Part shown: positions 451-14,509 of the stretch, in pieces | Layout: each line of letters begins with the position of its first letter | Numbering within the stretch: the first letter of the stretch is position 1 | Origin: Rhodospirillales bacterium | GTDB taxonomy: Bacteria > Pseudomonadota > Alphaproteobacteria > Acetobacterales > Acetobacteraceae | Reading direction: 5' to 3' | NCBI GenBank assembly: GCA_028869995.1 | Contig: JAGWQN010000093.1 | Coordinates: 145,336 to 188,959 of the forward strand | DNA: 43,624 nt | Program-made: the position numbers and the translations under genes | Notes under the pieces: generated by a model | Told to the model about the DNA's origin: nothing | Databases searched by the model: none | Seen by the model: only the letters and a program-made list of their open reading frames with translations

Positions 451-3400
451 TCAAACGGTGATCTGTGCCACCGTGGCCGTCTTCGCATTCAGCGCCGCGA
501 CCTGTCCCGCAATGATCGTCTTCAGCGACTGCAGGTGCTGTTCGACGCGCCCCAAGACCTCGTCCGCCACCTGGACGGCCTGGCTGGTCGGCCGCGCGTC
601 GGCAACCGCGACCGTGTCGATGAGCTTTCCGAGCGTGTCGTTGAGGCCCGCGGGATGGCGCAGATGGTCGCGCGGCGTAGCGCGGTTGACATCAACCAAC
701 GCCCCCTCGACGGCCAGCAGCCTGGTGGCGATCTCCGCCGCTTCGGTCGCAACCGCGCCGCCGGCTCGCTCGCCCAGCGCTGCCAGTTGCCGCTTCATCC
801 TGCGAATCTGGTCCACCGCTTCGTTGAGCTGCGAAAGGCAGCCCGTCAGCTGCGACAGCAGCTTGAACTGCGCCGCGTAATCCTCGGGCGTCGTCGTGTA
901 GCGAGGATCCTTCACGATCGTGAGCGGCGCCGCGTGCGTTGTCCCGCCGACCGTCAAAGCCACCTCATAGCCGCCAGGAACGGCCGTCGGCCCTGATGTC
1001 GAATCCTTGTCGGTCGCAAGGGCCTTCGTCGAGGTGCTGGCCAACGAGGCGTCGAGCTTCGCCGGCCCTGCATACTTGAGGTCCCAGACAAATCGATTGA
1101 GGCCAGGTCTTGTCCCCGGGCGCTTTGCCGCCGCGAGTTCCTTGTCGTCACTGGCGAACCGAACCACCTCGGTGCCCGCAGCGTCGCGGATCGTGATCGT
1201 AACGGGGCCCTTCACCTTGTCGTCCAGCCAGTAGTGAAGAATGGCGCCGTTGGGTGGATTCTCACCAACGTCGAGATACTCGCGCTTTTCGGTTCCATCC
1301 GGCCGGTCGGTACTGCGGATGCCCCCGGCGATCCCGAAGGCAAGGCCGAACGAAACGGGCTTTCGGACACCGCCCAGGGCGCGGAAATGGAGTCGCGTAC
1401 GGATCGCGTTGCGCGGCGGCAGGAGTTGCGTGTTCATCCCCTCGAGCGCGCGCAGCGGTGAGATATCGTCAAGGATCCAGAACGATCGCCCATGCGTGCC
1501 GGCGATCAGGTCGGTATCGCGGATCTTGAGATCGTAGACCGGAACAACGGGAAAGCCCCCGCCCATGCGCTGCCAATGGGCACCGTCATCGAGCGACATG
1601 AAGACACCTGTCTCCGTGCCGACGAACAGCAGGCCCTTGCGCACGGGGTCGGCGCGCACCACCCGGGTAATCTCTCCCTGCGGGAAGTCGCCGTTGATTG
1701 ACTCCCAACTTTTTCCTCCGTCTCGCGTCCGGAACAGATACGGCCTGTAATCCGAGAGCTTGTAGCACGTGGCTGCGACGTAGATGGTGTCGGCGTCATG
1801 AGCGGATATCTCGACGCAGCCCACGTACGCCAGCTCGGGCATGGCCTTGGGCGTGACGTTGCTCCAGCTCTTTCCATCGTCGCGGGTTACCTGCACCAGC
1901 CCGTCGTCGGTCGAGGCCCAGATCTCGCCGCGGCGATGCGCACTCTCTGCCAGGGAGGCACAGGTCGCATGCACCTCCGCGCCGGCGCTCTCGCGCGTGA
2001 CGTCCCCACCGGAATGCCCCTGGCGGGATTTATCGTTCCGACTGAGGTCGGGAGAGATCATCTCCCAGCTCAGCCCCTCGTCGCGGGTACGGAAGACGTG
2101 GTTGCCCGCCGCGTACAGGATGTTGCTGTCATGCGGAGAGAAGACGATCGGGTACGTCCATGCGAACCGGAACTTCAGGTCGCGCGGCGCGATGCCCGTT
2201 GATTCATCCGGCCAGACATTGACCAGGCGGATCTCCCCGGTGCGCTGATCGTAGCGCTGGAGCGCGCCCATTCCGCCGACCGAGGAACCGATGGCGCCGC
2301 AGTAGACGATATCCGGCTTGTCGGGGTTGACCGCGATGAAGCCGCTCTCGCCGGTGCCGGGATAGATGCAGTCGCCGAGCGTAATGGCCCCCCAGATCGC
2401 GGCCGACGGCGTGGCGATGGCGGAGTTGTCCTGCTGCGTTCCGTAAACCTTGTATGGGTACCTCGTATCGGTATCGATCCGGTAGAACTGGCTGGTCTTC
2501 TGGTTATAGATCGACGACCAGGTAAGTCCGCCATTGTACGAGACGCAGGCGCCACCATCATTTCCCTCGATCATCCGCGCCGGGTCGATGGGATCGATCC
2601 AGAGGTCATGATTGTCGCCGTGCGGCGTCATGATCTCGGTCCATTCAGCGCCGCCGTCGGTCGATTTCCACATCTGGAAGTTCGTCACATAGACCGTATC
2701 GGGGTGAACGGTGTCGGCAAACACGTGCGTGTAATACCAGGGGCGGTGCATCAGATCGCGGCTGTTGCAGGCGAGCGTCCAACGCTTGCCGTAGTCGTCG
2801 GAGCGATAGAGGCCCGTCTTGTCGCCCACGGCCTCGATAAGGGCCCAGACGCGGCCCGGCTGTGCCGGTGAGATGGCAACGCCGATCTTGCCGAGCATCC
2901 CATCGGGGAGCCCGGGCGCGGTGGTGATCTCCTCCCAGGTGTCGCCGCCATCCATCGACCGGAACAGGCCGCAGCCGGGGCCTCCGCTCGAGATGTTCCA
3001 GAAATTGCGGCGTGTCTGCCAGATGCTGGCAAAGAGGATGCGCGGATTCGCCATATCCATCGCGAGGTCGATCGCGCCGGAATCGGCGTTGCGGTAAAGT
3101 ATCTTCTCCCAGGTTTCGCCACCGTCGCGCGAGCGGAAGACCCCGCGCTCCTCATTCGGTCCGAAGATGTCGCCGAGTGCCGCGACGTAGACGAGATCCG
3201 GATCCTGCGGATGGACGATGATGCGTCCGATATGCTTGCTCGCCCTCAGTCCGATATGCTTCCACGACTCACCGCCGTCACTCGAGCGATACATGCCGTC
3301 CCCATAGGAGACATCGAGCCGGATGGTCGTCTCGCCGGTGCCCGCATAGACGACATTCGAGTCCGAACGGGCGACGGCCAAGGCGCCGATCGCAGCGCTG

Positions 3401-3609
3401 GTCAGGAACCCGTCCGTGACACAGCGCCAATAAACGCCGCCATCGACGGTCTTCCACACACCGCCGGCACAGGCCCCGAAATAGAAGACCATCGGATCAT
3501 TGGCGTCGCCCGCCACCGCCACCACGCGCCCGCCGCGCGGCGGCCCAATGCACCGCCAGGTCAGCGCTTCGAGCTTCGCCGGTTCCGGCGCGCGGGCAAG
3601 GTCGGTCAT
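451..3609 (-). CDS. Large Asp-box/BNR beta-propeller protein (sortilin/VPS10-like)
   Basis: A 1052-residue protein built mainly of Asp-box (BNR) repeats, each of the form [FY]RSxDGGxxW. Copies include YRSSDGGESW, FRSRDGGETW, FRSMDGGDTW, YRSDDYGKRW, WKSTDGGAEW, FRTRDEGLSW, FRTRDGGKSW and FMSLDDGAHW. This pattern belongs to the WD40/YVTN/BNR and sortilin-N propeller families, often labelled 'glycosyl hydrolase' without proven activity. The C-terminal ~250 residues are a different domain containing a helical, possibly coiled-coil stretch rich in Leu/Gln/Arg. The start at 3609 (MTDLARAPEP) is preferred over an upstream in-frame ATG at 3696 because an AAGGA lies upstream and the family starts here. 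No signal peptide is seen, which is odd because relatives are usually secreted. It probably stands alone, with 171 bp separating it from the upstream gene. Function unknown; it may be a protein- or glycan-binding scaffold. Confidence 0.82.
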   Translation of the reverse strand: MTDLARAPEPAKLEALTWRCIGPPRGGRVVAVAGDANDPMVFYFGACAGGVWKTVDGGVYWRCVTDGFLTSAAIGALAVARSDSNVVYAGTGETTIRLDVSYGDGMYRSSDGGESWKHIGLRASKHIGRIIVHPQDPDLVYVAALGDIFGPNEERGVFRSRDGGETWEKILYRNADSGAIDLAMDMANPRILFASIWQTRRNFWNISSGGPGCGLFRSMDGGDTWEEITTAPGLPDGMLGKIGVAISPAQPGRVWALIEAVGDKTGLYRSDDYGKRWTLACNSRDLMHRPWYYTHVFADTVHPDTVYVTNFQMWKSTDGGAEWTEIMTPHGDNHDLWIDPIDPARMIEGNDGGACVSYNGGLTWSSIYNQKTSQFYRIDTDTRYPYKVYGTQQDNSAIATPSAAIWGAITLGDCIYPGTGESGFIAVNPDKPDIVYCGAIGSSVGGMGALQRYDQRTGEIRLVNVWPDESTGIAPRDLKFRFAWTYPIVFSPHDSNILYAAGNHVFRTRDEGLSWEMISPDLSRNDKSRQGHSGGDVTRESAGAEVHATCASLAESAHRRGEIWASTDDGLVQVTRDDGKSWSNVTPKAMPELAYVGCVEISAHDADTIYVAATCYKLSDYRPYLFRTRDGGKSWESINGDFPQGEITRVVRADPVRKGLLFVGTETGVFMSLDDGAHWQRMGGGFPVVPVYDLKIRDTDLIAGTHGRSFWILDDISPLRALEGMNTQLLPPRNAIRTRLHFRALGGVRKPVSFGLAFGIAGGIRSTDRPDGTEKREYLDVGENPPNGAILHYWLDDKVKGPVTITIRDAAGTEVVRFASDDKELAAAKRPGTRPGLNRFVWDLKYAGPAKLDASLASTSTKALATDKDSTSGPTAVPGGYEVALTVGGTTHAAPLTIVKDPRYTTTPEDYAAQFKLLSQLTGCLSQLNEAVDQIRRMKRQLAALGERAGGAVATEAAEIATRLLAVEGALVDVNRATPRDHLRHPAGLNDTLGKLIDTVAVADARPTSQAVQVADEVLGRVEQHLQSLKTIIAGQVAALNAKTATVAQITV

Positions 3610-3780: not shown

Positions 3781-5595
3781 TCAACGAACCACAACGATCT
3801 CCGGCAGCGTGGGCCCCAGGGTGAACGACAGCGATCCGGATGCTTCCGGTCCGCGCATGGGATAGACGGGCGCAAGCCGCCGGCCCGGTACCTGCAGGAC
3901 GAGGTGGCGCGAGGCGCTGCCCGCCTGTCGCGTCGCCTGCACCGAAATCAGGAGTTCCGCACCCGCATGCCGGACATGGATCTCGATGCCAGCCGCCCGC
4001 GCGTTGCCCTCACGCACCGATACCGGCGAGGACACCAGCCCGGCCACGTCGCCAAGCGGCACGGTCGGCACGTCCGCGAGCAATGGCGCGCCCCGCCGGC
4101 GCCCGCGTTCGCTATAGGCGCCGGGCGTGATATCGGCCGCGACCTTGCCGCCCTTGGCAACGAAGTCTCGTATCGCCGTACCGGCCGCATCCGAAAGCGC
4201 CAGCACCTGCGGCATCGCCAGCACCCGTAGCCCTCGCAAACCGCCATGCGCCACCATGGCGTCGGTCAGCATCACCGGCCGCAGACCGCGCGCGGCAAGG
4301 CTGCGCAGCAGGCCAACCAGGACCCGACGGCCCGGCGTGGCATCCGCGTCCTCGTCGCCCGAGCTGCGTTGCGCCCAGTCCTCCTTCTTCCCCGCCGCCA
4401 GCGCGGCCCGACGTGCCAGCAGCCAGTCCAGTCGAAAGCTCTCCTGCGAGATCAGGACCCCGACGGGCGCCGTCGGTTCGGGCGCAGCGATAATCTGCCG
4501 GCCGAGCGGTCCCGTGAGCGCGTGAAAAACGGGCTCGAGCGCCTTGCCACGGTCCGACGGCTGGCCATCCGCCGCGACGATCGAGGGGCTGTCCCAGATC
4601 ACCACGCCGCGCACGCCGCGCAACGCTTCGCGCCAGAGATGCCAGACCTCACGCGGTCCGGCGAAGGTTGTTGTCAGCAGGATGGCGTGCGGATCGAACC
4701 CGCGCGCCGTCGCCAGCGAGCCATAGAAATCGTAGATCTCGAAGAGATCGGCGCTGCCCGCCAGACGTGGCCAGTTATAGCCTCCCCAGCCCGTCGGCTG
4801 CATGCCCTCGAGCGCGGACCGCGCACCCGGATCGCCGCGATGCACCGCTCGCGTGCCGCGCGCCACCGCGGCGGCAAAGCGCGCGTCCATGAACGCCTTG
4901 AAGTCGGACCACGCGCTATAGTTGCCATCGGTGCGTGCCAGCGCCGCATCCGTCAGTTCCGGCTCCACCTGCGCCCAGCGCGTGTAGCGGGTCCCCCAGC
5001 CGCGATCGAGCGCGGCGATGTCTCCGTAACGATGTCGCAGCCATTGCCGGAAGACGGCGATGCTCGACGGCGAGGTATCGAAATCCCAAGCCGAGGCGAG
5101 GTCGGCAATGCCGGCTTCGTCACCGAGATTGTAATACCGCGCCGTGGCGCCGAAGACCCTGACGGTCGCGGCGAGCCGTCTTGCGATGCGCTGTTGCCAG
5201 GTCGGGTCCTCGAACCCGGGCTGGCGGCGGAACAATGCCGGATCATGCGGGGAGATCCGCCGAAGCGCCCGCAGCTTGTCCATCTCCCAGGTGGAAGGAT
5301 GGTTGGGGAAATAGCGGTGATAGGCACTGTAATAGTCGGTCGCGATGTTCTCGACATAGAAGCCAAGTCCGGCTGCCTCCAGCGGCGCCGCCGCCCGGCG
5401 CAAACCCGCCGTGTCCACCGGGTCGCTGCGGCTGCCGAAGATCCGCCCGTCCGTCACGCCCAGTGCCTTTGCCGTCGCCAGCGCCGCGGCATTGCGATCG
5501 GACTGCCAGAGGATCACATGAAACGAACGCCAGGGCGCCGGACCGGCGCCGCCCGCGAGCAGCGCCGCCGCCAGCAACAGCGTCCATCGCCTCAT
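3781..5595 (-). CDS. GH42-like glycoside hydrolase (beta-galactosidase type), exported
   Basis: A 604-residue protein starting with a hydrophobic signal-like segment (residues 1-20, MRRWTLLLAAALLAGG). The central TIM-barrel region contains YNLGDEAG (Glu160), followed by FRQWLRHRYGDIAALDRGWGT. That matches the GH42 acid/base region, normally N-E followed by the FRxWLxxxYGxxxxLNxAWGT block. Here the residue before Glu is Asp rather than Asn, so activity is not certain. LEGMQPTGW (Glu263) may supply the nucleophile. The C-terminal third resembles the GH42 trimerisation fold (VLAMPQVLALSD...FVAKGGKVAADI). The start codon overlaps the hpnN stop as ATGA (5592-5595), so translation is probably coupled to hpnN. 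A long open frame continues upstream inside hpnN but is only an overlap. Substrate unknown. Confidence 0.75.
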   Translation of the reverse strand: MRRWTLLLAAALLAGGAGPAPWRSFHVILWQSDRNAAALATAKALGVTDGRIFGSRSDPVDTAGLRRAAAPLEAAGLGFYVENIATDYYSAYHRYFPNHPSTWEMDKLRALRRISPHDPALFRRQPGFEDPTWQQRIARRLAATVRVFGATARYYNLGDEAGIADLASAWDFDTSPSSIAVFRQWLRHRYGDIAALDRGWGTRYTRWAQVEPELTDAALARTDGNYSAWSDFKAFMDARFAAAVARGTRAVHRGDPGARSALEGMQPTGWGGYNWPRLAGSADLFEIYDFYGSLATARGFDPHAILLTTTFAGPREVWHLWREALRGVRGVVIWDSPSIVAADGQPSDRGKALEPVFHALTGPLGRQIIAAPEPTAPVGVLISQESFRLDWLLARRAALAAGKKEDWAQRSSGDEDADATPGRRVLVGLLRSLAARGLRPVMLTDAMVAHGGLRGLRVLAMPQVLALSDAAGTAIRDFVAKGGKVAADITPGAYSERGRRRGAPLLADVPTVPLGDVAGLVSSPVSVREGNARAAGIEIHVRHAGAELLISVQATRQAGSASRHLVLQVPGRRLAPVYPMRGPEASGSLSFTLGPTLPEIVVVR

Positions 5596-8162
5596 CGCGC
5601 CAGCAGCGCCGGCAGGAACACCAGTGTCGCTACCAGCGTGCAAAACAAACTCACCAGCAGCAACACGCCCATGCTCGCGGTTCCCGGATGCGCGCTCATC
5701 GCCAGGGAACCGAAAGCCGTCCCGGTGGTCAAGGCTGAAAACAGGATCGCCCGGGCGGTCGCCGTCCCCAGAAAATGGCGTGCCCCCGCGCGGTGGTTGC
5801 TCACGAAGTAAACGTTGAACGACACGCCCACGCCAAGCAGCAGCGGCAGGGCGATGATATTGGCGAAGTTGATGGGCAGCGGCACGAACACGATGGCGAT
5901 GGCGGTCATCAGCGCCGAGAGCAGCAGCGGCGCCAGCACCCGAGCGACATCGTCCGCGCGCCGCAGCACCAGCGCCAGCAGCACCGCGATCACCACCAGC
6001 GCGCCGATCGCAGCGGTGCGAAAGGCGCGCACGATGGTCAACCCGCTCTCGACGATCACGACAGCGGACCCGATGGCGTCCGGCGCCACCGAACGGACCG
6101 CGGCCACGAAGCGTCGCAGCCCGGCGGGCTTGCGCGACGCCGGCCCAGCCACCGCTTCCACGCGGACACGCCCATCCGGCAGCTGCCATTCACGCCGCAG
6201 CGACGCGGGCAGCGTGGCAATTGTCACCGGCTGCGCCTGGAGCCCGGCCCGCAGATCTTCAAGCGCTGCCGGCAGGTAGTGCGTCAGCGCGTCGTTGGCG
6301 GCAAACAACGTCGCGTCCGGCGCCTGCTCGAGCTTCGTGAGGTCATCGCCGATCCGCGCCAGGACGGAGCCAGGCTGCACCTCGCCCTTGGCGACGGTTC
6401 GCCCGATCGCGGTCGCCGCCGTACGTGCCGCAAGCCTGATATCGCTGGCTCGGACCGGCGCCGCAGCGCCCGCCGGTGTCAGGCTCGGCATCAGCAGCGT
6501 CGCCGCATCCTGGATCAGTGCCAGCTTGTGCGCCTGGTCGCCTGGAACGAAGCTCGACAGCGTCCGCACCTGCACGACCTCCGGCAGCGCCGAAAGTCGT
6601 TTCGTCAGGACATCGGCAGCCGCCTGATCATGCGCCACGACATCGGCGATGTAGGGCGTCGTGATCGGCGAAGCCATCAGCGACTTCAGGGTTCGCATCG
6701 CCTCGGTATGGGGGTTCTTGGTGTGCAGCGGGTCTCCGTCGAAGGGGATTCGAGGCAGCACCGCGACACCGAGGATGGCCAGCACCGCGAATCCCGCCAG
6801 CACCAGCCGCCGGATCGGCACAAGCCGGTCCTCGAGCCGGCCCGCCCAGGCGAAGCCGATCTCCTCCCCCTCCGGGCGCGGTCGTGTGAGTGCGAGCATC
6901 GCCGGCAGCACCGTCAGGGTGCACACGAGCGCGATCACCATCCCCGCTCCCGCGATCAGGCCAAGTTCCGCCACTCCGGCAAAATCGGTGGGCACGAAGG
7001 AGAGAAAGCCCGCGGCGGTCGCCAGGGCGGCGATGCCGATCGCCGGTCCTGCGCGGTAGCCCGTCGCCATCAGCGCGATCTTGAGATCCGGATACTCGTT
7101 CAACTGCTCGCGCAGGCGCACGCAGAACTGGATCGCGAAATCCACGGCAAGGCCGACGAAAAGCACGGCGAACGCGACCGACACCAGGTTGAGTGTCCCG
7201 ACAGCGATCGCCGCAAATCCGGTGGTGAGCACGAGACCTACGATGAGCGTGGCCACGATCGGCACGACGAGCCGCCAGGAGCGTGCGGCAAGGAACAGCC
7301 ACAACAGCACCAGCACACCGGTGATCAGCATGCCCCGCGCGGCTCCCTGTGCCACGCTGGCGAACTCCTCGTCCGCCAGCGGCACGGAGCCGGTGATCGC
7401 GACGCTGGCGCGACCTGCCCGGACCTCGGGCAATCGGGCGATCGCCGCCCGCACGACAGCGCTTGCCGCGCCGCCGGGCTGCAGCGCGGCATGATCCAGC
7501 ACCGGCTTGATCAGCACGAACCGGTCGGGTCCGGCGAGGTCGGCGAGCCCGCCGGCCAGGAGCCGCTGCCAGGAGAGCGGCTCGGCCTTGCCGGCCAGCG
7601 CCGCCGTCAGCGTCGCATGGAAGGCTGTCAGCGCCGGGTCCATCGGCGCTGTCGCCGCGCCATGCTCGACCCCGACGGCGACCAGCGTGAGCGCCGCAAA
7701 CAAGCCGCGCGCCGAGGGGTCCGCGGCGAGCTGGCCGAGGAAAGGCTGGGCGTCGATGGTGTGGTTCAGCAGTGTCGACAAGGCCTTGGTGTCGAGAAAC
7801 AGCATCCCGCTCTGGCGGAACCATGCTCCGGCGTCCGGCCTGCGCACACTCCGGATCAAGGGCTCGTGCGCCAGCGCCGCGGCCAGGTGCGCCGCGGCTG
7901 CATCGGCTTCCTCCGGGGTCGCGCCGCGCACCACGGCGACGATAAGATTGTTGTCCTGCGGGAAGGCCTTGTCGTAGGCGATCTCGCGCTGCCGCCACGC
8001 CAGCGAGGCGGAAAAAAGATGATCCGTGTTGGTGTCGATGCCGAGCCGAAGCCAGGCCGCGGCAAGCGCCAGCAAGGTCAGGAGAAGCGCGGCGAGCAGA
8101 ACCCGGCCGCGCCGTTGCCAGCACGCCTCGACGAGGTGCGCCAACCGCAGGGAGAGCGTCAT
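5592..8162 (-). CDS. hpnN: Hopanoid transporter HpnN (MMPL/RND family)
   Basis: An 856-residue RND/MMPL protein with two repeated halves, each a large periplasmic loop followed by a block of transmembrane helices. HpnN moves hopanoids from the inner to the outer membrane. The diagnostic sequence is the first loop, TDHLFSASLAWRQREIAYDK followed by AFPQDNNLIVAVV, which closely follows the HpnN consensus, and PFLGQLAADPSARGLF further on. Length agrees with the family. ATG at 8162 gives MTLSLRLAHL; another in-frame ATG four codons upstream (8174) is possible, and neither has a strong ribosome site. The gene is divergent from the MetE-like gene and heads a two-gene unit with the GH42-like protein. 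No other hpn genes are in the window. Confidence 0.87.
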   Translation of the reverse strand: MTLSLRLAHLVEACWQRRGRVLLAALLLTLLALAAAWLRLGIDTNTDHLFSASLAWRQREIAYDKAFPQDNNLIVAVVRGATPEEADAAAAHLAAALAHEPLIRSVRRPDAGAWFRQSGMLFLDTKALSTLLNHTIDAQPFLGQLAADPSARGLFAALTLVAVGVEHGAATAPMDPALTAFHATLTAALAGKAEPLSWQRLLAGGLADLAGPDRFVLIKPVLDHAALQPGGAASAVVRAAIARLPEVRAGRASVAITGSVPLADEEFASVAQGAARGMLITGVLVLLWLFLAARSWRLVVPIVATLIVGLVLTTGFAAIAVGTLNLVSVAFAVLFVGLAVDFAIQFCVRLREQLNEYPDLKIALMATGYRAGPAIGIAALATAAGFLSFVPTDFAGVAELGLIAGAGMVIALVCTLTVLPAMLALTRPRPEGEEIGFAWAGRLEDRLVPIRRLVLAGFAVLAILGVAVLPRIPFDGDPLHTKNPHTEAMRTLKSLMASPITTPYIADVVAHDQAAADVLTKRLSALPEVVQVRTLSSFVPGDQAHKLALIQDAATLLMPSLTPAGAAAPVRASDIRLAARTAATAIGRTVAKGEVQPGSVLARIGDDLTKLEQAPDATLFAANDALTHYLPAALEDLRAGLQAQPVTIATLPASLRREWQLPDGRVRVEAVAGPASRKPAGLRRFVAAVRSVAPDAIGSAVVIVESGLTIVRAFRTAAIGALVVIAVLLALVLRRADDVARVLAPLLLSALMTAIAIVFVPLPINFANIIALPLLLGVGVSFNVYFVSNHRAGARHFLGTATARAILFSALTTGTAFGSLAMSAHPGTASMGVLLLVSLFCTLVATLVFLPALLAR

Positions 8163-8283: not shown

Positions 8284-9414
8284 ATGGGAAGCCCGATGCA
8301 ACCGCCCCGGACCCGGCCTCCATTCCGTGCGGACCATGTCGGCAGCCTGCTGCGCCCGCCGGCCTTGCGCGAGGCGCGCGCCCAGCATGCGCAGGGCCTC
8401 CTGTCAGCCCCGGCCTTGCGTGCCATCGAGGATCGATGCATCGCCGAGGCGATCGCCCGGCAGGAGGCGATCGGCCTGCGAGCGGCAACCGACGGCGAAC
8501 TGCGCCGCTCCTACTGGCACTACGATTTCGTGGCCAGGCTCGGCGGCACCGAGCTCTACGTCCCGGAAAACCAGGTCGAGTTCAAGGGCGGCGTGAAGCT
8601 GCCCCATCGGCTGCGCGTGGTCGGCCGCATCGCGTGGACACAGCCCGCTTTCATCGACGACTTCCGCTTCGTTGCCGGCCACGTGAAGACGGCGATGGCC
8701 AAACAGACCATCCCCGCCCCATCCGTGTTGCATTTCCGTGGCGGGCGGAACTCGATTGACCCGCGCGTCTACCCGCAGATGGAGGCCTTCTTCGACGATC
8801 TCGGACGCGCCTACCACCATGCGGTGCAGGCCTTTGCCGCCGCCGGCTGCCGCTACCTCCAGCTCGACGAGGTGAATATCGCCTATCTCTGCGATCCGGA
8901 GCAGATCGCCGGCCTCAAGTCGCGGGGCGATTATGTCGACAATCTGCTCGGCATCTACGCCGACCTGATCAATCGCGCGATTGCGGGCAGGCCCGCCGAC
9001 ATGGCGGTCTCGATGCATCTCTGCCGCGGCAATTTCCGCTCGACGTTCGTCGCCACCGGTGGCTACGAGCCGGTGGCGGAAGTGTTGTTCAACCAGATCG
9101 GCGTCGATGCCTATTTCATGGAATGGGACACCGAGCGCGCCGGCGGATTCGAACCCCTGCGCTTCGTGCCCCGCGGCAACAAGATCGTCGTGCTCGGCCT
9201 GATCACCACCAAGTCCGGCGAGCTGGAGTCGAAGGACGACCTGAAGCGTCGCATCGAGGCGGCAAGCCGCTTCGTCCCCCTCGAGCAGCTCGCGTTGTCG
9301 CCCCAATGCGGCTTCGCCAGCACGGAGGAAGGCAATCGGCTGACGGCGGAGGATCAGTGGCGCAAGCTTGAGCTCTGCGTCGAGGTTGCCCGCGACGTCT
9401 GGGGCTCGGTGTAG
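8284..9414 (+). CDS. MetE-like cobalamin-independent methyltransferase, single domain
   Basis: A 376-residue homologue of the C-terminal catalytic domain of cobalamin-independent methionine synthase (MetE/UROD-like barrel). It opens with FRADHVGSLLRPPALREAR, as in the YxjG/YxjH-type stand-alone proteins. The probable zinc ligands are present: His245 and Cys247 in MHLCRGN and Cys342 in SPQCGF, with QLDEVN around Glu196 in the substrate pocket. It lacks the N-terminal half that binds polyglutamyl-folate in full MetE, so the methyl donor may differ and methionine synthase activity cannot be assumed. AGGAGA at 8269-8274 lies 9 nt before the ATG. It is divergent from hpnN and followed 21 bp later by a glycosyltransferase. 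Confidence 0.87.
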   Translation: MGSPMQPPRTRPPFRADHVGSLLRPPALREARAQHAQGLLSAPALRAIEDRCIAEAIARQEAIGLRAATDGELRRSYWHYDFVARLGGTELYVPENQVEFKGGVKLPHRLRVVGRIAWTQPAFIDDFRFVAGHVKTAMAKQTIPAPSVLHFRGGRNSIDPRVYPQMEAFFDDLGRAYHHAVQAFAAAGCRYLQLDEVNIAYLCDPEQIAGLKSRGDYVDNLLGIYADLINRAIAGRPADMAVSMHLCRGNFRSTFVATGGYEPVAEVLFNQIGVDAYFMEWDTERAGGFEPLRFVPRGNKIVVLGLITTKSGELESKDDLKRRIEAASRFVPLEQLALSPQCGFASTEEGNRLTAEDQWRKLELCVEVARDVWGSV

Positions 9415-13552: not shown

Positions 13553-14509
13553 ATGCGCGATTTCGACGAACTGTCCGAACGCGAGATCCTGGCCCTCGCC
13601 ATCGCCGGCGAGGAGGAGGACGGGCGCATCTACATGGATTTCGCCGACGGGTTGCGCGAGAATTATCCGGCATCGGCCAACGTCTTCATCGAGATGGCCG
13701 GAGAGGAGAACGAGCATCGCCGACGGCTCCTCGATCTCTATGTCCACAAGTTCGGCGAGCATATTCCGCTGATCCGCCGCCAGGACGTGCGCGGCTTTGT
13801 CTCGCGCCGGCCGCTCTGGCAGTTGCGCCCGCTGCCACTCGACAAGGTCCGCGAACAGGCCGAGCTGATGGAGCTGGAAACCGCGCGCTTTTACCGCCGC
13901 GCGGCCAGCCGCAGCACCGACGCCTCGATCCGCAAGCTCCTCGGCGACCTCGCCGTCGCCGAGGATTCGCATGAGCACATGGCCGAGCGCCTGGTGGCGG
14001 AGAACCTGACACCAGACGTGCGCCACGCCGAGGATGAGGCGGCGCGCCGCATGTTCGTCTTGCGCGTCATCCAGCCTGGCCTTGCCGGGTTGATGGACGG
14101 CTCCGTATCGACGCTGGCACCCGTGTTTGCCGCCGCCTTCGCGACGCATTCTTCGTGGGAGGCGTTCCTGGTCGGCCTCGCCGCCACGCTCGGCGCCGGC
14201 ATCTCGATGGGCTTCGCGGAGGCCCTCTCGGACAACGGCAGCCTGACCGGCCGCGGCGCGCCCTGGGTGCGCGGCGTGATCTGCGGCCTCATGACGGCTG
14301 CTGGCGGTATCGGCCATACGCTGCCGTTCCTGATTCCCGCGTTCATGACGGCGACCGTGGCGGCCATCATCGTCGTCGTGATCGAACTCGCGATCATCTC
14401 CTGGGTACGCTGGAAATACATGGACACGCCCCCCGTCTCGGCGGCGATGCAGATCGGCTTCGGTGGCGCCCTCGTCTTCGCCACCGGCATCCTGATCGGC
14501 AGCGGCTGA
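13553..14509 (+). CDS. mbfA: Membrane-bound ferritin MbfA (ferritin-like domain fused to VIT1-like transporter)
   Basis: A 318-residue fusion. Residues 1-165 form an erythrin/ferritin-like four-helix domain with repeated di-iron ligand motifs: GEEEDGRIYMDF, GEENEHRRRL, ELMELETARFYRRA and AEDSHEHMAERL. Residues ~180-318 are a VIT1/CCC1-like membrane domain with Gly-rich helices (LVGLAATLGAGISMGFAEAL) and GGALVFATGILIGSG at the end. In Bradyrhizobium and Agrobacterium, MbfA exports iron and protects against peroxide, usually under Irr control. No clear Irr (ICE) box was seen in the 106 bp upstream. The ATG at 13553 has GGGAAG upstream. A YqjI-like metalloregulator lies 1.3 kb downstream. Confidence 0.92.
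   Translation: MRDFDELSEREILALAIAGEEEDGRIYMDFADGLRENYPASANVFIEMAGEENEHRRRLLDLYVHKFGEHIPLIRRQDVRGFVSRRPLWQLRPLPLDKVREQAELMELETARFYRRAASRSTDASIRKLLGDLAVAEDSHEHMAERLVAENLTPDVRHAEDEAARRMFVLRVIQPGLAGLMDGSVSTLAPVFAAAFATHSSWEAFLVGLAATLGAGISMGFAEALSDNGSLTGRGAPWVRGVICGLMTAAGGIGHTLPFLIPAFMTATVAAIIVVVIELAIISWVRWKYMDTPPVSAAMQIGFGGALVFATGILIGSG

Follow-up and report, generated by a model that had tools for sequence, protein, structure and literature searches.

Hopanoids reach the outer membrane by way of HpnN. Bacteriohopanetetrol receives an N-acetylglucosamine from HpnI, HpnK takes the acetyl group off and HpnJ makes the cyclitol ether (PMC12583986). The products of HpnI and HpnK, N-acetylglucosaminyl- and glucosaminyl-bacteriohopanetetrol, are known hopanoids, and one survey found glucosaminyl-bacteriohopanetetrol to be dominant, at up to 90%, in many species with the whole hpnI/hpnK/hpnJ set (PMC12583986). 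On the side of the sugar-cleaving enzymes, the archaeal GlmA is the only described GH35/42 enzyme with an Asp-Glu pair, Asp178-Glu179, in which the Asp binds glucosamine and the D178N variant is inactive (PMC6566704). GlmA cuts chitosan oligosaccharides in archaea, and reportedly rejects GlcNAc.

The window, a stretch of 43,624 nucleotides from a Rhodospirillales bacterium of the family Acetobacteraceae, brings these two themes together, as it carries an hpnN gene whose end overlaps the start of a gene for a glycosidase-like protein, here called the partner (Table 1). A sequence-only reading of this DNA had named the transporter and had proposed that an ATGA overlap couples it to the next gene. 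Both points are borne out, since the overlap is seen in the sequence and the TIGR03480 match of the transporter is full length (residues 8–855) and above the curated cut-off. By analogy with the HpnN proteins described in PMC12583986, the window protein would move hopanoids to the outer membrane. It is full-length like the HpnN of other hopanoid producers (TIGR03480) and differs from them by the coupled or fused glycosidase-like partner; it is also the only HpnN above the cut-off in its own genome, which is 77%-complete. A clear third-position GC preference is seen in both genes, and comparison with locus L077 gave dN/dS values of 0.098/0.530 for hpnN and 0.048/0.452 for the partner (about 0.19 and 0.11, respectively); purifying selection acts on the two genes alike. 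The N-terminal stretch of the partner is a probable signal peptide, judged by eye from its residue pattern, and a helix at residues 2–13 of the AF2 model falls within it. Further along the window lies a rubrerythrin and VIT1 fusion, presumably a membrane ferritin-type iron exporter, and the sortilin/BNR-repeat gene that follows the partner adjoins it in the same-genus locus L025 too.

Table 1 Features of the hpnN–partner locus, in window coordinates
Feature	Position	Strand	Basis
hpnN, hopanoid RND/MMPL transporter, 856 aa	5592..8162	-	TIGR03480 926.6 bits, cut-off 751.85; MMPL PF03176
Exported (predicted) GH42-like partner of HpnN, 604 aa	3781..5595	-	PF02449 24.8 bits; AF2 model; GH42 closest structures
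ATGA shared by the hpnN stop and the partner start	5592..5595	-	sequence; like overlaps in 12/22 linked loci
Probable signal peptide of partner, residues 1–20	5536..5595	-	Arg-Arg, hydrophobic stretch, then small residues
TIM-barrel domain, about residues 22–365	4501..5532	-	eight modelled strands
Glu82, end of strand 3, invariant	5350..5352	-	21/21 unbiased sample; 78/78 A2
Asp159-Glu160, Asp-Glu motif, end of strand 4	5116..5121	-	21/21 members covering motif; 78/78 in A2
Glu263, not conserved	4807..4809	-	A2: Glu 60, Ala 12, Gly 5, Thr 1 of 78
Glu286, end of strand 6, invariant	4738..4740	-	21/21 unbiased sample; 78/78 A2
Thr309, end of strand 7, at place of GH42 nucleophile Glu	4669..4671	-	Thr 77/78, Ser 1/78; model strand 305–310
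Sortilin/BNR-repeat protein, 1052 aa, without obvious signal peptide, after partner gene	451-3609	-	
MetE-like (Meth_synt_2) protein, divergent from hpnN	8284-9414	+	
Rubrerythrin + VIT1 fusion	13553-14509	+	

The pair recurs, which rules out a chance overlap. Searching for it in other hopanoid producers was a check set beforehand in the sequence-only reading, and its outcome is positive: hpnN lies directly upstream of the partner, on the same strand, in 22 of 80 named loci, where no other hpnN arrangement was seen, and a hopene cyclase is present in all 23 pair genomes. These loci were kept from a scan of named genomes that gave 112 relatives, mostly from Acetobacteraceae, other Rhodospirillales-type alphaproteobacteria and Acidobacteria; the search used peptide patterns containing the Asp-Glu and ENIATDF motifs. 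In a sample of 100 genomes of the window's own family, with the partner called at E 1e-5, the partner was detected in 21 and HpnN in 86. HpnN was present in every carrier, a slight enrichment when relatedness is ignored (21/21 versus 65/79, p 0.037). For one carrier, G086, the match is weak, spans 130 residues and has Asn at position 159. The partner directly follows hpnN in nine of the 21 carriers, and none of these nine genomes has an HpnN match besides the linked one, which rules out a partner serving a spare HpnN copy; no direct linkage was shown in the other 12. The family sample and the named loci share genomes, so that the linkage counts are not independent, and both are lower bounds because the upstream region was too short to hold hpnN in a few loci (e.g. 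L095, L112, L132, L140 and L151). Elsewhere in the class the partner is rare (2/289 genomes, own genome included), and searches of plasmids and viral contigs gave no relative. Three further figures define the material: alignment A1 has 13 rows and omits eight of the 21 family carriers; alignment A2 has 78 rows, three of the 80 loci having been left out as too short; and the 20 family carrier contexts exclude G086 and G090, known only by the short loci L021 and L013. No description of an HpnN–glycosidase pair or fusion was found in the literature searched, subscription journals lying mostly outside its scope. We rate the glycosidase-like protein as a new partner for a known transporter and consider the partnership itself probably real.

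The partner is predicted with high confidence to be a three-domain protein of GH42 type. Its match to Pfam Glyco_hydro_42 is weak (24.8 bits against a cut-off of 21) and covers residues 174–258 only. The AF2 model built from 78 relatives (mean pLDDT 94.9, pTM 0.93) shows a TIM barrel, with strands at residues 26–29, 49–53, 78–82, 155–159, 260–263, 284–286, 305–310 and 330–333, followed by a GH42M-like and a C-terminal beta domain. Over residues 19–604 this architecture is that of the GH42 beta-galactosidases 5e9a, 3tts and 1kwg (VIA Z 20–22), GH42 being closest among the matches listed (Z 22.0, rmsd 3.3, 498 residues); Foldseek matches the model to 5e9a at E 1.4e-21, and the family profile reaches GH42 structures by sequence as well (4ucf, 3.4e-10). 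The GH42-like folds of GH164, GH167 and the Ignavibacterium beta-1,2-glucosyltransferase are also similar (VIA Z about 18–20), a likeness of fold in which the sequence relation amounts to weak profile matches, and a viral structure library gave poor structural matches. Longer relatives, such as that at L101:5629-8082 from Limobrevibacterium gyesilva RN2-1, a cultured carrier in which the two genes are adjacent, are extended by a beta-sandwich at the N-terminus and an immunoglobulin-like domain at the C-terminus, both missing from the window protein; these extra domains were modelled, and the structural search gave no identification for them.

The likeness to GH42 ends at the active site. The three true GH42 proteins examined from the same class have Asn-Glu at strand 4 and carry Met-Glu-Gln-Gln-Pro-Gly, with the strand-7 nucleophile Glu, where the partner has Thr309; the partner has Asp-Glu instead, and is set apart further by its apparent export and its coupling or fusion to HpnN. 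In a profile–profile alignment of the partner family with GH42 (probability 98, E 4.5e-13) the GH42 nucleophile falls in a gap, and the strand-7 nucleophile is gone in all partner members examined. Among residues 298–334 no acidic position is conserved in every sequence; at position 335 (Asp335, strand 8), 77 of 78 sequences have an acidic residue. The polar residues invariant in A2 are Glu82, Asp87, His93, Asp159, Glu160, Asp171, Asp173 and Glu286. This invariance arises partly by construction, as the search was motif-based, and a sample gathered by homology only serves as the unbiased recheck: there Glu82, Asp87, His93, Asp159 and Glu286 are each found in 21 of the 21 members covering the position, and Glu160 in 22 of 22 with the weak outlier L021 included, which itself has Asn-Glu instead of Asp-Glu. 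The sequence-only reading had taken Glu160 and Glu263 as the catalytic pair. Its second member has to be given up, since Glu263 varies in A2 and is found in 17 of 20 members of the homology-only sample, and Glu286 is the invariant residue. The same reading's assignment to GH42 holds for the predicted fold and the weak PF02449 match and fails for family membership: by its active-site sequence, with Asp-Glu for Asn-Glu and the nucleophile Glu missing, the partner is not a GH42 member. We see in it a member of the GH42 superfamily whose active site has been altered.

The Asp before Glu160 was correctly noted in the sequence-only reading, where it counted as a worry; in our reading it is the best clue to function, as glucosamine recognition in GlmA goes with this very substitution (PMC6566704). 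The partner model matches the GlmA structures 5gsl, 5gsm, 6jow and 8oug with VIA Z of 16.6–17.9 (5gsl, Z 17.9), and both proteins have Asp-Glu at strand 4. The spacing is also alike, GlmA Glu103/Asp178-Glu179/Glu306 being separated by 75 and 127 residues (PMC6566704) and partner Glu82/Asp159-Glu160/Glu286 by 77 and 126. Glu82 and Glu286 would thus fit the strand-3 Glu of GlmA and its Glu306, near O1, a correspondence by strand end and spacing only. The GlmA nucleophile, Glu347 on strand 7 (PMC6566704), has no counterpart in the partner, where Thr309 is found. The chemistry of the partner therefore cannot be that of GlmA, and the analogy is partial, because of this missing nucleophile and because GlmA is reported to reject GlcNAc. 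In GH20-like families, a strand-4 Asp-Glu pair works with help from the acetamido group of the substrate, and an enzyme nucleophile is not needed. The partner's strand-4 pair and missing nucleophile would fit this type; GH20 does not occur among the 50 VIA matches listed, an absence still compatible with such a relation. Both comparisons, with GlmA and with GH20, point to an amino sugar as the substrate.

We propose, as a tentative reading with a probability of about one in three, that the partner works in the periplasm next to HpnN, as an amino-sugar enzyme whose substrates are hopanoids with a sugar head. Stop–start coupling, or fusion in one clade, would have the partner made in step with HpnN, and it would work where HpnN passes hopanoids toward the outer membrane. 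There its most likely target would be glucosaminyl-bacteriohopanetetrol (or the N-acetylglucosaminyl form), whose sugar it would remove or move, thereby setting the amount of sugar-headed hopanoid that reaches the outer membrane. The 2-amino or 2-acetamido group may be bound by Asp159, with Glu160 in the role of the acid. As no nucleophile of the usual kind is present, the reaction would either be inverting, with a different carboxylate (best candidate Glu286) serving as base, or draw on the acetamido group of the substrate itself. A link to sugar-bearing hopanoids, raised in the sequence-only reading, is plausible as a function in this form, the substrate being a matter of inference. The probability of the trimming mechanism depends on how strictly it is read, and falls from the above figure to unlikely for its strictest form, a machine for export and trimming. 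In that form a glycosidase-like enzyme of a new GH42-superfamily type, adapted to amino sugars and lacking the usual nucleophile, would be placed at the periplasmic face of HpnN (on the same chain in one clade) and would remove or transfer the glucosamine head of bacteriohopanetetrol glycosides during their export, so that the sugar decoration of hopanoids in the outer membrane would be edited after export.

The hopanoid genes of the carriers are consistent with such a substrate and do not single it out. HpnI is found in 20 of the 23 pair genomes and HpnK above the cut-off in 21; G150 and G154 have neither and G162 has no HpnI, where assembly incompleteness is possible. An hpnK gene broken in the fusion clade was ruled out, as the flagged TAG is the natural gene end in L162 and L163, the two loci examined. 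The family as a whole has HpnI no less often (83/100 genomes), and HpnI does not separate carriers from non-carriers (20/21 versus 63/79, p 0.11). The 14 Acidobacteria loci have the same active-site residues in genomes without HpnN and without HpnK above the cut-off; the presence of a hopene cyclase in 12 of these 14 carriers is uninformative against a background of 115/151. The check for HpnN among unlinked carriers took in 47 of the 58 unlinked loci. Because the HpnN-less acidobacterial carriers keep the same residues, the amino-sugar site, if it is one, would have existed before the two genes came together and would have been recruited to hopanoids afterwards. The occurrence of these residues in the HpnN-less Acidobacteria, and in unlinked relatives beside beta-helix proteins, makes an HpnN-exported hopanoid improbable as the ancestral substrate.

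The neighbourhoods of the relatives bear on a wider choice of substrates. In 11 of the 22 linked loci hpnN has a divergent MetE-like gene on its upstream side, just as it does in the window. In L118 (positions 1-2875) and related loci of the fusion clade, a class I lysyl-tRNA synthetase gene and a lysyl-phosphatidylglycerol synthase-like gene precede the fusion, which suggests a shared envelope-lipid operon. Unlinked relatives often adjoin secreted right-handed beta-helix proteins, a cluster seen in 13 of the 80 loci; at L094:4038-5941 two such proteins (Pfam PF13229) are encoded directly upstream of the relative. The frame beside the unlinked relative in L149 is one that we take to be a glycosyltransferase from its appearance, and in the acidobacterium L140 the relative lies beside sugar oxidoreductase- and isomerase-like genes. 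The beta-helix cluster, the frames in L149 and L140 and the general envelope context of the fusion clade would all suit a periplasmic enzyme for some other amino-sugar polymer, e.g. an exopolysaccharide, the sugars of lipid A or a cell-wall glycan, which would not act on hopanoids and would be co-produced with HpnN because the two serve envelope building. We regard this alternative as only slightly less likely than the hopanoid reading; it leaves unexplained why hpnN, among all envelope genes, should be the overlapped or fused partner in 22 of 80 loci.

The junctions show how tight the pairing is. Of the 22 linked junctions, 12 are 4-base overlaps (ATGA or GTGA), seven are single fused frames and three are gaps of 2, 2 and 35 bases. 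An overlap is thus present in 12 of 15 unfused linked loci, and among 30 control hpnN loci without a partner a single one has a downstream frame overlapping the hpnN stop (Fisher p 1.9e-7). This sole control overlap, at L069:770-1495 in a genome with no partner, is an ATGA overlap with an MlaA lipoprotein gene (outer-membrane lipid transport); at L055:4143-5564, also in a genome with no partner, an OprB-type carbohydrate porin follows hpnN, and similar-looking frames are found in L049, L056 and L067. The seven fusions, all from metagenome assemblies, form one clade with 100% SH-aLRT support, and the fusion has one origin on the partner tree. In these fused chains the signal-peptide-like stretch of the partner, coming after the last helix of HpnN, would be a further membrane helix. 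The identities of HpnN and partner correlate with r 0.96 (210 pairs of 21 sequences; L091 and L128 excluded), which means joint inheritance of the two genes over divergence as deep as 55% identity for HpnN and 37% for the partner. On the partner tree the linked state forms clusters (4 changes versus a shuffled mean of 19.5), and linkage therefore had few independent origins.

Being fused to HpnN would make sense for a fixed subunit, and the loss of the strand-7 nucleophile in every member examined would suit a protein that does not hydrolyse; the partner might then be a binding or accessory subunit that recognises the sugar head or docks HpnN to the cell wall. We consider this improbable, because eight invariant polar active-site residues are more than binding usually needs. 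It is equally improbable that the two genes share no function and stay together merely through inheritance of a chance operon, as the few origins of linkage, the single origin of the fusion and the 12 of 21 carriers without direct linkage might suggest, for the pair persists to the identities given above while its outer neighbours change, and overlap and fusion bring the genes closer together than is usual within an operon (1/30 in the control).

Hopanoids are the bacterial analogues of sterols in the membrane, and their fossils are widely used as biomarkers. If the partner does process the amino-sugar heads of hopanoids next to HpnN, it would stand for a type of the GH42 superfamily whose active site is unusual, and a conserved, sometimes fused, partner of the exporter would provide a direct genetic handle on the balance between sugar-headed and free bacteriohopanetetrol.
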